Source: a virus
Length of the DNA: 20,481 nucleotides
Strand: one strand, 5' to 3'
Virus record (IMG/VR): IMGVR_UViG_3300032006_000119
Span: 1 to 20,481 of that record
Shown: one piece after another, positions 1 to 5,437 of the stretch
How the letters are laid out: each line of letters opens with the position of its first letter
Numbering within the stretch: the first letter of the stretch is position 1
Notes under the pieces: generated by a model
Told to the model about the DNA's origin: nothing
The model's input: only the letters and a program-made list of their open reading frames with translations
Databases searched by the model: none
Position numbers and translations under genes: made by a program

Positions 1-8
1 AAGGAGAC

Positions 9-389
9 ATGAACATCAATGGTCAACTATTCCAGAACAACTCTGAATTCGTAACATCTCGTTGGACACAGGCTTCTAACGGTAATGACATTTATAGATT
101 ATCCAAGGTTGGTGTTAATAAGTCTAACCCAACTTATGAGATGCATATCAGTGGTAAGTGTAACATAGAAGGACAAAACTTCAGTAACCAAACCAATGAT
201 AGTGTTCTCTATGCTAATGGAGACAGACAATGGATAGATACTTATGGAGTATTCAAGTGTAATAGAAGTACAGTGAGTGAAAACATAACTGTACCTAATA
301 ATCACAATTGCATGAGTGCAGGTCCAATAACCGTAAATAATAATATCGTAGTTACCATCGCTAGTGGTGGTAGTTGGGTTGTTATTTAA
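9..389 (+). CDS. Appendage/tail-fibre-like structural protein
   Basis: The product is 126 aa, probably a small virion appendage or fibre-tip protein. The start is firm: AAGGAG sits at 1-6, two bases before the ATG. The C-terminal quarter (about residues 95-126) has the N-x-N-C-M-S-A-G-P-I-T-V pattern followed by an I-A-S-G-G-S-W-V-V-I ending. This kind of ending closes many cyanophage fibre and structural proteins. The middle part has short beta-like segments and a DRQWID stretch, also usual just before that ending. It is short for a fibre, so it may be a stand-alone tip or a chaperone-like module cut from a longer fibre gene. Family membership is inferred from motif resemblance; receptor binding is not shown. 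It is the first complete gene of the window, and a late-promoter motif follows it. Confidence 0.6.
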   Translation: MNINGQLFQNNSEFVTSRWTQASNGNDIYRLSKVGVNKSNPTYEMHISGKCNIEGQNFSNQTNDSVLYANGDRQWIDTYGVFKCNRSTVSENITVPNNHNCMSAGPITVNNNIVVTIASGGSWVVI

Positions 390-428: not shown

Positions 429-1565
429 ATGGCTTCAGAATTAAGAGTAGATCAACTTAAATATAGTTCTGCTGGTAGTGGTACGACACCAAACATTACC
501 CTTAACAGCAATGGAACTGTAAATTTTGGTAGTAATATTGATATAGGTGGGTCTTTGTTGGTGCAAGGTGCTCCTTTCACCACATTACCAACACAGTATG
601 CATCTGGAGAAAACTCCACGGTAGGTGCTGTATTGAAATCTGATGGTACTAATGCCTTCTGGGAAACTTCCGTAAGTTTTGAAGATGGTTTTAATATCAC
701 CAAAGGATATCCTATTGCTGGATATAGAGGTGGATCTTCTTGGAGGAATGTAAACAGATGTACTCATTCCACACAATCTATGGCAAACTTAGGTGATCAG
801 ATCACCTATTCTGATGCTTATACTGCTGGAGCAAGAAACTCTGCTGGTAGAGCATATGTCTTCTGTACTGCTAACGGTTGGAACAGTACTGGTAATGCAG
901 TATCTACTTTCAACATGGTTAGTGAGAGTAACGGAGGTACATCAACAAACATGTCTACTTCCAGAAACAGAACTTCTGTTATGCAAAGGGACTTTAAGTA
1001 TGCTTATGTTTGTGGTAATAATAATGATAGACCAGATAGATTTGACTTAACTACTGATGGTGTAACAACTGTTAGTGGATCAGGTGGATCAGGTGGAGAC
1101 AACCCTGCCTGTGGATACGGTGAAAAGTATGGTTGGTATAAGCAAGGTGGTAATGGATATTCCTTTGCTTGGGCAACTGAGTCATGGTCTAGTTGGAATA
1201 ACCGTCCTGGTACAGACGGAACTAACAAAACATGGTCTACTAGAAAAGGACATAGTTACTGGAACGAATCAGGTGGTTATCAAACCAACACTGCTTTAAC
1301 CAGAAGAAATGATGAAACTGGAACAAACCTCGGTTCAGTTGGTAAACCAGGAACAACTGGGGAAGAAACAAACCACACTGGTATGTCTTACGGATTCATG
1401 AATGGAATGTATAATGGACAGCAGAATAATCAAGGTGGATGGATTAACTTATCATCTCACTCATTCAGCTGGAATGGTAGTTTGAACTCTACAGGTACAA
1501 GTGGCAGAGCATCTGGTGCTGCTGTAGAATGGGGAACCTTAGCATCAGGATACACAGGTATTTAA
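429..1565 (+). CDS. Virion structural protein, Gly/Ser/aromatic-rich, possible receptor-binding appendage
   Basis: The product is 378 aa. The N-terminus (M-A-S-E-L-R-V-D-Q-L-K-Y) and the segment near residues 70-80 with K-S-D-G-T-N-A-F-W-E are typical of cyanophage structural and fibre proteins. From about residue 90 on, the chain is very rich in Gly, Ser, Asn, Thr, Tyr and Trp. It shows repeated blocks of similar look: a Thr/Ser/Arg stretch, then a Tyr- or Trp-containing beta-like stretch with G-N, Y-G-x-x-Y-G-W, Y-x-F-A-W, H-S-Y-W-N and M-S-Y-G-F-M. This suggests a beta-propeller or stacked-beta distal domain. There is no signal peptide, membrane segment or catalytic motif. The next gene starts two bases after the stop, so the two are probably co-translated. 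A host-contact role is inference from composition and location. Confidence 0.6.
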   Translation: MASELRVDQLKYSSAGSGTTPNITLNSNGTVNFGSNIDIGGSLLVQGAPFTTLPTQYASGENSTVGAVLKSDGTNAFWETSVSFEDGFNITKGYPIAGYRGGSSWRNVNRCTHSTQSMANLGDQITYSDAYTAGARNSAGRAYVFCTANGWNSTGNAVSTFNMVSESNGGTSTNMSTSRNRTSVMQRDFKYAYVCGNNNDRPDRFDLTTDGVTTVSGSGGSGGDNPACGYGEKYGWYKQGGNGYSFAWATESWSSWNNRPGTDGTNKTWSTRKGHSYWNESGGYQTNTALTRRNDETGTNLGSVGKPGTTGEETNHTGMSYGFMNGMYNGQQNNQGGWINLSSHSFSWNGSLNSTGTSGRASGAAVEWGTLASGYTGI

Positions 1566-1566
1566 A

Positions 1567-2340
1567 ATGGCACAAAGATACTTTATTGCAAAAAATCCAG
1601 ACACGGATCAGTTATCCACTTATGTTCCAATAACACAAGTATTGGAATGGTGTGTATATTCTCTTGATTCTGATGATCTTAACTCAATTAACCAACAAGC
1701 ATCATTTGCTGAAAGGGTTACTGAGTTAGATAAAGAAACAGCATTCTTTGGGTTAAGACATTTCGCTGATATTCGTACTACTATTAAAGTACCTGCTGAC
1801 GAAAGAGAAGAACAGGAAAAATTTGATGATCTTAGTTACTCAGATCTTTGGGTTGATGCATCAAAGAATGTAGTTCCTGTAACACAAAAGAGAATGAATA
1901 CTATTCTTAGATCAATGAAGTTTCTTGCGAAACTCATGATTGAAGATATATTTAATAAGAGATTTGCAGCTCTTGATGAAGGTGCTTCTGCAATAGAGAA
2001 GAAGGTATGGGAATATCAGATTGATGATCTGAATAATGCAACTAATTTTATTATTCCAGACTTAGCAACAGCAAAAGGTGTTACAGTAGAAAAGTTAAAG
2101 TCTCAAATTGCTGAGAAGAAAGCATTCTATGATAAGAGTGTTAAATCTTATTACATTGAGATGGTTAACTTGAAGCAATTATTCAATAACTGTACTACAA
2201 TTAGGCAATTGAATGTATTGTTTGAAGATAAAATGGGAATCCTAATGCCTCAGGCACAAGCAGAGGATGAAGGAAGAACCTATGACCATCCTTCTTATGG
2301 TATAATAAGGACAGAAGTAAAACCTGGTATAAAATTCTAA
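1567..2340 (+). CDS. Conserved-looking helical protein of unknown function
   Basis: The product is 257 aa and I do not recognise the family. It starts one base after the previous stop, which suggests translational coupling to the appendage gene. The sequence is mainly alpha-helical, with charged stretches at residues 40-85 and a long central helix region around 100-200 (K-R-M-N-T-I-L-R-S-M-K-F-L and later L-K-S-Q-I-A-E-K-K). No signal peptide, membrane segment, metal-binding cysteine set or nucleotide-binding loop is visible. Codon use and AT content match the neighbours. Position next to a structural gene suggests a virion or assembly role, for example a fibre-assembly chaperone, but this is only inference. 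Confidence 0.6.
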   Translation: MAQRYFIAKNPDTDQLSTYVPITQVLEWCVYSLDSDDLNSINQQASFAERVTELDKETAFFGLRHFADIRTTIKVPADEREEQEKFDDLSYSDLWVDASKNVVPVTQKRMNTILRSMKFLAKLMIEDIFNKRFAALDEGASAIEKKVWEYQIDDLNNATNFIIPDLATAKGVTVEKLKSQIAEKKAFYDKSVKSYYIEMVNLKQLFNNCTTIRQLNVLFEDKMGILMPQAQAEDEGRTYDHPSYGIIRTEVKPGIKF

Positions 2341-2356
2341 AATATAATTTTTCATT

Positions 2357-3124
2357 ATGAGTCTAACAGCAGAAGAAATTAAGGAGTATTCCAAAAAGGT
2401 TGCTCTTGGGATGTCTAATCAGCAAATTCAAGACTATGTGATTGCTTCACATGTTACGAATGATAGACAATTTAAACAAGCATTACTTGAGATTGAGCAG
2501 AGAGAGCACAATCGCAAGAAGATGGTGATTGGAAAAAGAAAGAGTTTATGTGATGTCAAGAGAGCTGAGAGAGAATTAGCAGAAGCTATAAAGTCAGGTG
2601 ACGAATTAGCAATAGAAGTTTTACAAATCGATGTTGATGATTTTAATCTAGATGTTGATATGTGGGATAGAAGAATGATGCAACTTGATTATGAGCATAA
2701 TGTTTTCATTGAGTTCATTCAAAAGAATGCTGATAGTATAGAAGACTTAATGAGTAAGGCAGATTGGAGTGACGAGGAAGAGAAGAGATATTGGGTTGCT
2801 CGGATGGGTAAACAAGCAGCATTGGATATTGTCTCTCATGGTAGAATCAGTGTAGGTAATATGGATTCTATTGCTATGATGAAAGAAGATGATCAGATGC
2901 AAATCTTGGATCTAGCATCACAATATTCTTGCTTAATGAAAGTATCTATGGCCAAGATACAAGGAAGAACAGATAAGTATTTTAAAGCATACGCCGAATC
3001 ACCTGATATCAATATCCCAAGTTTCCACGGTATTGAAGAAGGAATGAATATACCACTACTTGATCAAATTAAAAATGATGTTGACGGAAAAATGCTTCAG
3101 TCTTCCGATCAACCCAAAGAGTGA
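2357..3124 (+). CDS. Coiled-coil protein of unknown function
   Basis: The product is 255 aa with no family recognised. The N-terminal third is highly charged and helical. Residues about 45-85 carry a K/R/E-rich stretch (R-E-H-N-R-K-K then E-R-E-L-A-E-A-I-K) that should form a coiled coil. A very acidic D-V-D-D-F-N-L-D-V-D stretch follows near 90-100, then helices with many Met and Trp residues. The C-terminal tail overlaps the start of the U32-like gene in another frame, so the two are likely translated together. No enzyme motif, signal peptide or membrane span is seen. It might scaffold or partner the downstream enzyme, which is inference from overlap only. Confidence 0.6.
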   Translation: MSLTAEEIKEYSKKVALGMSNQQIQDYVIASHVTNDRQFKQALLEIEQREHNRKKMVIGKRKSLCDVKRAERELAEAIKSGDELAIEVLQIDVDDFNLDVDMWDRRMMQLDYEHNVFIEFIQKNADSIEDLMSKADWSDEEEKRYWVARMGKQAALDIVSHGRISVGNMDSIAMMKEDDQMQILDLASQYSCLMKVSMAKIQGRTDKYFKAYAESPDINIPSFHGIEEGMNIPLLDQIKNDVDGKMLQSSDQPKE

Positions 3125-4781
3125 TTGGAAATTTATACAAAACATTTTTATCCCGTTCTTAAAAGAACATAGGGATGTAATATATGATTTATATTTTACT
3201 TGTCGCATAGCACCTTTTGGACAGGATGCTATGGGAGATGTCTTTGTTTCTGACCCTAGAGAGTCAGCAAAGAATGCTCTATGGATACAGGAACAAGTAG
3301 ATATTCCTTTGTCTGCTACCTTTAATAATATATGGGTAAGACCAGATCAGAAGAATCTTAATCTATGGATTGAAAACTTTAAACCATTATATGATAGAGG
3401 AGTTAAAATAGTAACTCTTCCTCATACTTCATGGGTATTAACTGGACAGATACAAAAAGAATATCCAGATCTATTCATTAAGAATACTATTCTTAGGGAA
3501 GTAACAAGACCTAATGAAATAGTTCAATTAGCAGAAGCAGGATTCCATTATGTGAATCTTGATAGAGATTTAATGCGTGATCGTGATCAGTTAGATCGCA
3601 TCATGAAAGCAAAGGCATATTGTGCTGACATAGGTAAACCAGTTAAGATATCATTACTTGCTAATGAGGGATGTTGGGGTGGTTGTCCTATCATGCCAGA
3701 GCATTATCAATATAATAGTACAAGGCAAGGAGATCAACCACACTATTTTAATGATATTATGAGTAGGGTATCATGTTCTACTTGGGACATTAAACATGCA
3801 GAGTATGATTTAAAACAAGCAAATATACCACCTTGGAGAGAGGATTGGGAAGAGTTCTTAGAGTTGGGTATAGATGTCTTTAAGATGCATGGTAGAGAAA
3901 GTCATGTAAGACTTAAAGAATCAATGGATCTTATGACTAGATGGAAGAATCATGAGGAATTATTATATCCCCAATTAGAACCATATATGGAAGATCTAGG
4001 TTTGAAAGAGAAACCTATTGATGTATGGAGAGATAAGATAAAGAATTGTAAGTTTGATTGTTGGGATTGTAATTACTGTGAAAATGTTATTGATGCTCAT
4101 TTAAGAAAACAAGATAGAATATTACACCCATTTGTTGATAGATGTTTAAAATCTATTGATGATGCTGAAGATAATACATCTAACTTTACTGGACATAATA
4201 TAGAAGGGTTCTCTTCTGATAGGGTAAGACATTTCTTAAATAATCTTTGCTCTTATGAGGATACAAAGTATCTTGAAGTTGGTGTTTATAAGGGTAGTAC
4301 ATTCTGTGCTGCTATTCAAAATAATGATGTAACTGCTTATGCTGCTGATCATTGGCTTGATAAAGATATAAAACCAATAAGAGAAGATATAGAATGGAGT
4401 AATGAAGAACCATCTATAGATATATTCATCAAAAATGTTAAGGAGAACTGGACAGACAATAGTAATATTGCTATATTGAGTGGTGATATTAGAGAAGCAA
4501 CAGAAGAGAACTTAGATAAAAAAGTCAATACTGTGTTTTATGATGCTGACCATGAGTTCTGGACACAGAAGGCTTGTTTGGAACATGTGCTACAATATAC
4601 AGAAGATGAATTTATCTTGGTTGTTGATGATGCTAATATGGATGATGTGGTAAAATCATTTGAAAGATTTGTAGAGGATAACAACTTGGATGTTTTATAT
4701 AAACGAGTCATTCTAACTGAAGAAGTAGAAGATGCTGACGCATGGTGGAATGGTGTATGTATTGCGGTACTTAAGAAATGA
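3075..4781 (+). CDS. Fusion: U32-like cysteine-rich barrel plus class I SAM methyltransferase
   Basis: The product is 568 aa. I start at ATG 3075; ATG 3078 is an alternative and an upstream TTG at 3060 is less likely. Residues about 15-300 alternate strand and helix like a TIM barrel. They carry N-E-G-C-W-G-G-C-P at 197-205, resembling the U32 peptidase/hydroxylase cysteine motif (C200, C204), with C234 further on. Residues 325-335 hold C-x3-C-x2-C-x2-C. Residues about 375-568 form a class I methyltransferase: motif I Y-L-E-V-G-V-Y-K-G-S-T at 399-409, an acidic F-Y-D-A-D-H at 488-493 and V-V-D-D-A at 516-520. U32 relatives such as UbiU/V, RlhA and TrhP bind Fe-S clusters and act in hydroxylation; others are called peptidases. 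The substrate here is unknown. The stop overlaps the oxygenase start, so a linked modification role is inferred. Confidence 0.7.
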   Translation: MMLTEKCFSLPINPKSDWKFIQNIFIPFLKEHRDVIYDLYFTCRIAPFGQDAMGDVFVSDPRESAKNALWIQEQVDIPLSATFNNIWVRPDQKNLNLWIENFKPLYDRGVKIVTLPHTSWVLTGQIQKEYPDLFIKNTILREVTRPNEIVQLAEAGFHYVNLDRDLMRDRDQLDRIMKAKAYCADIGKPVKISLLANEGCWGGCPIMPEHYQYNSTRQGDQPHYFNDIMSRVSCSTWDIKHAEYDLKQANIPPWREDWEEFLELGIDVFKMHGRESHVRLKESMDLMTRWKNHEELLYPQLEPYMEDLGLKEKPIDVWRDKIKNCKFDCWDCNYCENVIDAHLRKQDRILHPFVDRCLKSIDDAEDNTSNFTGHNIEGFSSDRVRHFLNNLCSYEDTKYLEVGVYKGSTFCAAIQNNDVTAYAADHWLDKDIKPIREDIEWSNEEPSIDIFIKNVKENWTDNSNIAILSGDIREATEENLDKKVNTVFYDADHEFWTQKACLEHVLQYTEDEFILVVDDANMDDVVKSFERFVEDNNLDVLYKRVILTEEVEDADAWWNGVCIAVLKK

Positions 4782-5437
4782 CAACAGTTGATATGTTCCC
4801 TAACCCACTCTATAGGAAACCTTATCCTGAGAGTGATCAAGTTGAAAGGGATATTAGATCTATACTCGATAAAGGGAATACCAATCCAGTAAAGAATGGA
4901 ATGACAGAAGAGTTAATGCATTATGAAAATGATGTTGGTGAATCTCTTTTAGATAGAGAAGAGTTTTCTTGGTTTAAGGTATGGATAGAAGATACAGCTG
5001 CTACTTATGTTAAGGATGTTCTTGGAGAACTTCTGATTGAAGATATAGTAGTTACCGATAGTTGGTTGAATGTCTGTAATAAAGGTGGTTATCAATATCC
5101 TCACCATCATACAAATTCATATATTTCTGGTACTTACTATGTTAACTTTGAAGAAGGACATGCACCATTAATTTTCAGAAATGAAAATTGTTCTATGTTT
5201 AGTAGACAGCAATCTATAAGTCTGGGTATTGACAATGATAACCCAAACAAGTATAATTCTGATACAATCATATGGCCAGAGAAAGGTGAGTGTCTTTTTT
5301 GGCAATCACATTTAACTCACGGATATACAGATAATGGGAAAGACGATAGAATTTCTATCTCTTTTAATCTTATGCCAACAGTGGTGAATACCGACAAATA
5401 CTCATTCAGAGTAACCCCTTATAAGAGGGATAAATAA
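4778..5437 (+). CDS. 2-oxoglutarate/Fe(II)-dependent oxygenase
   Basis: The product is 219 aa. It matches the small phage and marine-bacterial 2OG-Fe(II) oxygenase group (TIGR02466/PF13759 type). Such enzymes use O2 and 2-oxoglutarate to hydroxylate a substrate through a non-haem iron. Visible signature: P-H-H-H-T-N-S-Y-I-S-G-T-Y-Y-V at 108-122, which holds the proximal iron-ligand region. Distal H181 lies in S-H-L-T-H-G-Y, and R191 in D-R-I-S-I-S-F-N is the expected 2-oxoglutarate carboxylate anchor. The strand before it (G-E-C-L-F-W) is the usual beta segment. The ATG overlaps the preceding stop (ATGA), so it should be co-translated with the methyltransferase fusion. Cyanophages often carry several such enzymes; substrates are mostly unknown. 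Confidence 0.85.
   Translation: MTTVDMFPNPLYRKPYPESDQVERDIRSILDKGNTNPVKNGMTEELMHYENDVGESLLDREEFSWFKVWIEDTAATYVKDVLGELLIEDIVVTDSWLNVCNKGGYQYPHHHTNSYISGTYYVNFEEGHAPLIFRNENCSMFSRQQSISLGIDNDNPNKYNSDTIIWPEKGECLFWQSHLTHGYTDNGKDDRISISFNLMPTVVNTDKYSFRVTPYKRDK
5429..5436 (+). promoter_or_regulatory. Late promoter motif GATAAATA
   Basis: GATAAATA overlaps the stop codon of the oxygenase gene and lies 21 bases before the ATG of the small coiled-coil gene. It fits the NATAAATA late -10 pattern seen repeatedly in the window. Confidence 0.55.

Follow-up and report, generated by a model that had tools for sequence, protein, structure and literature searches.

What does the product of T4-GC 354, a common uncharacterised gene of ocean cyanophages, modify, and by what chemistry? 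We addressed this question in a 20,481-nt stretch of viral DNA (IMG/VR virus record IMGVR_UViG_3300032006_000119, positions 1 to 20,481; hereafter the window), where the gene encodes a 568-residue fusion of a U32-like barrel with a class I S-adenosylmethionine (SAM)-dependent methyltransferase. Our tentative answer is that the protein may be a two-step modifying enzyme, hydroxylating through its U32 half and then O-methylating, which belongs to an exchangeable tail-fibre cassette and has a fibre protein as its most likely target. The open reading frame (ORF) starts at TTG 3060 or ATG 3075 and ends at 4781. As a first-pass annotation of this DNA had described, its TGA stop overlaps the ATG of a 2-oxoglutarate (2OG)-Fe(II) oxygenase gene by 4 nt (ATGA at 4778), the 2OG domain being recognised by PF13759 and TIGR02466.

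The N-terminal half is a distant U32 relative

The first-pass annotation had read the N-terminal half as a U32-type barrel. This half matched no Pfam or NCBIfam model even at E = 10, and the U32 model PF01136 found nothing at E <= 10 in the window or in nine related records. A profile built from the phage domain, by comparison, retrieved from Chloroflexota genomes a group of stand-alone proteins of ~410 residues (E = 1e-24 to 1e-27) and, weakly, a cellular protein (L162) that clearly belongs to PF01136 (1.2e-15). Eleven L162-like proteins, each passing PF01136, were combined in a second profile (A5). Aligned with hhalign, the phage and A5 profiles matched over residues 72-344 (P = 6.1e-17, 98.8%; a slight bias is possible, A5 having been gathered with an alignment that contained phage rows), and C200, C204, C234 and the C-terminal cysteines fell in register. 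The best P in 40 column shuffles was 1.4e-4, the reversed profile gave 0.08, and two unrelated barrels did not match the phage profile. The same connection was reached stepwise, from phage to Chloroflexota (P = 2e-25) and from Chloroflexota to PF01136 (P = 2e-16). L162 alone, used in plain tblastn, found 342 phage records, including 77 of Synechococcus, 38 of Cyanophage and 6 of Prochlorococcus, and the listed cyanophage places all lie in the fusion gene (best E seen 3e-10). The A5 profile also matched Escherichia coli TrhP (P = 8e-11) and RlhA (P = 3e-10); direct hhalign comparison of the phage profile with E. coli TrhP, RlhA, UbiU, and UbiV was not significant (TrhP: P = 0.0066; RlhA: P = 0.023).

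The structural prediction is compatible with these results. AlphaFold2 (AF2), given 34 related sequences, modelled the domain as an alpha/beta barrel of eight strands (predicted local distance difference test, pLDDT, 82.6; predicted template modelling score, pTM, 0.83). In a Foldseek search against the PDB, the U32 protein MK0906 (5d88) ranked third, and its template modelling (TM) score by target, 0.67, was the highest among the 50 matches listed. Many barrels were matched and MTHFR ranked first, so the fold by itself is not specific for U32; plain sequence or profile searches of the barrel against PDB chains returned only noise. Since Pfam is blind to this barrel, the assignment draws on the profile-profile match, the tblastn result with L162 and the AF2 fold match, which together establish the N-terminal domain as a distant U32 relative. 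The barrel claim thus stands, with matches both to the barrel fold and to U32 proteins.

Two sets of invariant cysteines

In an alignment of 84 sequences (the window protein, its own copy, and 82 relatives), eight cysteines are invariant: C183, C200, C204, C234, C325, C329, C332, and C335. Three of these (C200, C204, and C234) had been named in the first-pass annotation and are where it placed them; its list was short of C183 and of the whole second set. C200, C204, and C234 align with cysteines of PF01136 proteins, and the second set recurs in L159-L162 (L159-L161 from Chloroflexota) and in most A5 members. In UbiU and in UbiV, four cysteines hold a single [4Fe-4S] cluster, and four is also the number in most U32 families (PMC6747719). 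By analogy with UbiU and UbiV, the first set is likely to provide the ligands of a [4Fe-4S] cluster, and the second set could form a second iron-sulphur (Fe-S) or metal site. The spacing of the first set, C-x16-C-x3-C-x29-C, differs from the CX6CX16CX38C of UbiU.

The C-terminal half is a class I methyltransferase

The C-terminal half is a class I SAM-dependent methyltransferase, as had been proposed: it matches PF13578 (Methyltransf_24; E = 2.5e-8, 35.2 bits against a cut-off of 26.3), and its AF2 model is confident (pLDDT 90.5), with a Rossmann-like fold. It contains the glycine motif LEVGxYxGST and the invariant acidic residues D490, D518, and D519, which may correspond to the acidic metal-binding triad of metal-dependent O-methyltransferases (COMT/MycF/TrmR-like). 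Foldseek returned a mixture of class I enzymes that includes the O-methyltransferases TrmR, MycF, Rv0187, and COMT, with Fusobacterium TrmR (8k1f) at a TM of ~0.6. A YrrM/TrmR line in the search of the methyltransferase profile against PDB chains (E = 0.17) was gone with a slightly altered alignment and was not used.

All complete members of the family that we found are fusions, short tails being contig ends or domain borders placed too far. The N-terminal half is the more conserved of the two (60-77% identity between the window and its relatives, vs 38-72% for the methyltransferase half). Close phage copies of the fusion gene also occur in contigs binned as Dehalococcoidia and Euryarchaeota metagenome-assembled genomes (L085, L086), where they are probably phage DNA.

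The fusion gene is linked to tail-fibre genes

The block with the fusion gene sits between tail fibre and neck genes (Table 1), a location that would be compatible with action in step with virion assembly, as the first-pass annotation had suggested. T4-GC 353 is the immediate upstream neighbour of the fusion in 80/86 unique loci; in the window, the two genes share 50 nt at the 3' end of GC 353. By tblastn, GC 351, GC 353, and the fusion each hit 123 phage records, and the breakdown by genus (77, 38, and 8) is the same for all three; at least 438 cyanophage records have gp15. All three genes are retained even in S-ShM2, where the fusion is 5.8 kb from GC 353 and several 2OG genes lie between them.

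The downstream side is variable. The first-pass annotation had paired the fusion with the 2OG oxygenase, and a 2OG gene directly follows the fusion in all 26 relatives of at least 65% identity, in 4/59 at 55-65% and in 1/13 below that (31/98 unique loci overall; 5/72 under 65%). Full-length matches to the 2OG protein of the window were found in 39 records, vs 123 with the fusion; other 2OG genes are common nearby. The neighbouring 2OG gene is therefore a clade trait, accessory rather than a constant partner, and adjacency as a general rule was rejected. The gene after the fusion is denV-like in Syn33 and P-SSM4 and GC 585 in P-HM2; denV (endonuclease V) is annotated directly after the fusion in L002 (9692-10192) and L205 (12154-12663).

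The whole block can be replaced. The window and S-RSM4 are collinear on both sides of it (tail fibre 49%, between the fragment at 3..389 and the end of the S-RSM4 protein; gp13 77%; gp17 89%; capsid 75%), and S-RSM4 has in its place a block with Gly-rich fibre-like proteins (26 and 32% Gly) at both ends and several 2OG-oxygenase genes. In this replacing block (L202 4762-13796), many of the proteins between the two Gly-rich ones resemble 2OG- or phytanoyl-CoA-type oxygenases. S-SM1 has three annotated 2OG oxygenases at the corresponding place, and the fusion is absent from the whole genomes of both S-RSM4 and S-SM1. Close examination of these two genomes suggests that the block is an exchangeable fibre cassette that would bring its own oxidising enzymes.

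A two-step modification and its alternatives

Known U32 proteins act in O2-independent ring hydroxylation; the substrate is a quinone precursor for UbiU/V, 23S rRNA for RlhA, and tRNA for TrhP (PMC6747719, PMC6599085). In Bacillus subtilis, mo5U34 is made by the products of a single operon, trhP1-trhP2-trmR, and some eukaryotic microbes have TrhO fused to TrmR (PMC6599085). Because U32 products are often O-methylated afterwards, and given these operon and fusion precedents and the O-methyltransferase neighbours in Chloroflexota, a fused hydroxylase/O-methyltransferase is the natural reading of the protein. The chemistry that the first-pass annotation had drawn from U32 hydroxylases, hydroxylation followed by methylation, is by this analogy likely. 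The barrel, with one or two Fe-S clusters on its two cysteine sets, would hydroxylate a ring or other C-H position with no requirement for O2; the fused methyltransferase would then use SAM to O-methylate the new hydroxyl, giving a methoxy group as net product.

We favour the fibre protein GC 351 as substrate on the grounds of its strict genetic link to the fusion and of cassette exchange. Its sequence combines a fibre-like N-terminus with C-terminal repeats rich in Gly, Ser, Thr, Asn, Tyr, and Trp, making it a candidate fibre-tip adhesin and a candidate substrate. Its catalogue label ('sericin-like') was dropped as uninformative, the sequence resembling a fibre or adhesin. The most likely target would be a residue of GC 351, or a sugar attached to it, and the modified protein might differ in host binding or fibre stability.

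Several points weigh against this proposal. The U32 targets known so far are quinone precursors and RNA rather than proteins, and GC 351 is a candidate only. The AF2 model is poor at the loops of the first cysteine set (201-205 and 231-237) and so lends no support to the predicted cluster geometry. For the methyltransferase, the fold matches do not single out O-methylation, and its profile found no convincing solved relative by sequence among PDB chains. The 123 records are mostly near-identical S-RIM2 and S-RIM12 isolates, and the three sets were compared by counts, not by accession lists; linkage of the three genes may also just reflect a host-range block that moves as one piece.

RNA ranks second as substrate because of precedent. 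The U32 half could hydroxylate C5 of a pyrimidine in host or phage tRNA or rRNA, and the methyltransferase could make the methoxy form, as TrhP and TrmR do for mo5U34; the operon and the fused genes that join a ho5U hydroxylase with TrmR are the closest functional precedent for our protein (PMC6599085). The TrmR fold match and the profile matches of A5 to TrhP and RlhA point the same way. The phage profile, however, does not match TrhP or RlhA directly, domain-library searches found no RNA-binding accessory domain, the window has no tRNA gene, and an RNA substrate would leave the strict tail-fibre linkage unexplained. We regard it as doubtful.

The third alternative, which we consider unlikely, is that the fusion hydroxylates and methylates a metabolite, such as a quinone precursor, a nucleotide, or a sugar destined for a glycan. 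UbiU/V act on the quinone ring alongside O-methylation (PMC6747719), the U32 genes of enterobacterial T4-like phages have nucleotide-related neighbours that include a thymidylate-synthase homologue (and, in phage PM2, a chorismate mutase), and the cellular relatives adjoin reductive dehalogenases and an O-methyltransferase. Yet the cassette has no nucleotide, quinone, or sugar pathway gene, and the neighbours of the fusion are fibre-like or uncharacterised.

The first-pass annotation had further suggested that the U32-like and 2OG enzymes form a functional pair, hydroxylating the same substrate at low and at high oxygen. The 4-nt overlap and the constant adjacency among close relatives agree with such a pair. 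Adjacency is mostly confined to one clade, so this idea finds no comparative support; the 2OG protein is also far less widely recorded than the fusion, the stable partners lie upstream, and we judge the pair improbable. Scarcely to be expected is a U32 relative with no hydroxylase activity (structural or protease-like) beside an active methyltransferase, which the 'peptidase' annotation of the family and our knowledge of this subfamily from sequence alone would allow and which the stronger conservation of the N-terminal half and eight invariant cysteines, fitting an active cofactor site, speak against.

To return to the two-step enzyme of the fibre cassette, a bolder version holds that cyanophages use a dedicated U32-methyltransferase fusion to hydroxylate and O-methylate the fibre protein with which they recognise the host, and that 2OG-rich cassettes are the O2-dependent alternative at the same locus; we give this version a low probability. 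Were it true, the fusion would be the first member of U32 with a protein substrate, and its product would represent a new kind of post-translational modification of virions. For a long time U32 proteins carried a mistaken peptidase label, until they were found to support oxygen-independent hydroxylation, and a highly conserved phage branch that is fused to a methyltransferase and tied to tail-fibre genes would widen their substrate range. It would also assign a function to T4-GC 354 and, if the fibre is the target, connect the exchange of cassettes with the covalent modification of receptor-binding proteins. The proposal makes a clear prediction for a single protein, an Fe-S cluster and a methoxy product of +30 Da.

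Other features of the window

In gene content, the window corresponds to part of the genome of a T4-like marine myovirus: the tail-fibre end and the uncharacterised block are followed by genes for neck, tail-sheath stabiliser, terminase, plastocyanin, sheath, tube, portal, scaffold, and capsid. A cyanobacterial host is indicated by the plastocyanin gene and by the closest relatives. The T4-GC 352-like gene was detected by tblastn in only 17 records, and L002, L003, and L205 have a gene in the equivalent position. The 2OG oxygenase scores well above the curated cut-offs (PF13759: 66.1 vs 27 bits; TIGR02466: 80.5 vs 62.5 bits) and contains HHH at 109-111 and H181, candidate iron ligands. The T4 late promoter core ATAAATA occurs six times in the window, a number not above chance. 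All six sites (5430, 8659, 10193, 12617, 15179, and 17788) are on the + strand, and five of them are at most 50 nt upstream of an ORF start.

Table 1. Position of the fusion gene, its domains and cysteine sets, and the surrounding genes in the window
Feature	Coordinates	Strand	Basis
Tail fibre protein, C-terminal end (truncated by window start)	3..389	+	phrog_5342 tail fibre, 7.6e-51
T4-GC 351 ('sericin 1 precursor-like')	429..1565	+	phrog_1417
T4-GC 352-like protein, function not assigned, fast-evolving	1567..2340	+	phrog_1604, 1.1e-32
T4-GC 353 protein, function not assigned	2357..3124	+	phrog_1409, 2.4e-61
U32-like barrel / methyltransferase fusion, 568 aa, T4-GC 354	3075..4781	+	phrog_1458, 1.4e-239
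U32-like (beta/alpha)8 domain, residues 1-352	3075..4130	+	AF2, Foldseek, hhalign, tblastn
First invariant cysteine set: C183 (3621-3623), C200 (3672-3674), C204 (3684-3686), C234 (3774-3776)	3621..3776	+	
Second invariant cysteine set: C325-x3-C329-x2-C332-x2-C335	4047..4079	+	invariant in 84/84
Class I SAM-dependent methyltransferase domain, residues 364-568	4164..4778	+	PF13578, AF2, Foldseek, invariant columns
2OG-Fe(II) oxygenase	4778..5437	+	PF13759, 4e-18; TIGR02466, 1.4e-22; phrog_81, 8.6e-44

Comparison with known U32 systems

With the U32 family at large (UbiU/UbiV, TrhP, RlhA, and archaeal and Chloroflexota members), the phage protein shares the triose-phosphate isomerase (TIM) barrel, the positions of the cysteine motif, an FK.xGR motif, and the profile match. 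It differs in escaping the PF01136 model, in its cysteine spacing, in the additional C-x3-C-x2-C-x2-C, and in the fused methyltransferase. Its nearest cellular relatives (P = 2e-25) are stand-alone proteins of Dehalococcoidia type (set A6: L159, L160, L161, L173, L174, and L185), which have seven of the eight phage cysteines, lack C183, and are not fused. The Chloroflexota relatives (L167, L168, L169, L173, and L174) adjoin an O-methyltransferase of another family (PF00891) in 3/6 loci and lie beside a reductive dehalogenase or related twin-arginine translocation (TAT)/Fe-S proteins in 5/6.

Enterobacterial T4-like phages such as Proteus phage PM2 also encode a U32 'peptidase' with both cysteine regions, but it belongs to PF01136 itself, stands alone without a methyltransferase, and has a nucleotide-metabolism neighbourhood. 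The stand-alone gene is flanked by a thymidylate kinase-like gene on one side and a thymidylate-synthase homologue on the other (L203, NC_055727, 5983-9166; L204, 5001-7095; L196). In phage PM2, a chorismate mutase gene (PF01817, 3.4e-12) is in the same block as the U32 gene; the product of chorismate mutase is prephenate, a compound required by TrhP and RlhA. Since the 5-hydroxy-dCMP synthase of Mosigvirus has been reported to be this thymidylate-synthase homologue (PMC13390438), the role of U32 in that block is not settled by its neighbours.

The B. subtilis trhP1-trhP2-trmR operon (yrrN-yrrO-yrrM) likewise puts a U32 hydroxylase and a SAM methyltransferase to work in sequence (PMC6599085), but there they are separate genes with an RNA substrate, and the phage protein has no direct profile similarity to TrhP. 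In the open literature searched, no paper was found to describe a U32 protein from a phage or a fusion of U32 with a methyltransferase, nor was there a description of this make-up for T4-GC 354 (subscription papers and preprints were outside the scope of the search). In cyanomyoviruses, T4-GC 354 / phrog_1458 (Syn33_045, PSSM4_035) is the same full-length protein in the same cassette order, GC 351-352-353-354, and it is catalogued as hypothetical with no assigned function; here, it is resolved into a U32 and a methyltransferase half. The protein thus belongs to a hypothetical family already on record, and the fusion and its cassette are new within the U32 family rather than a new type of system.

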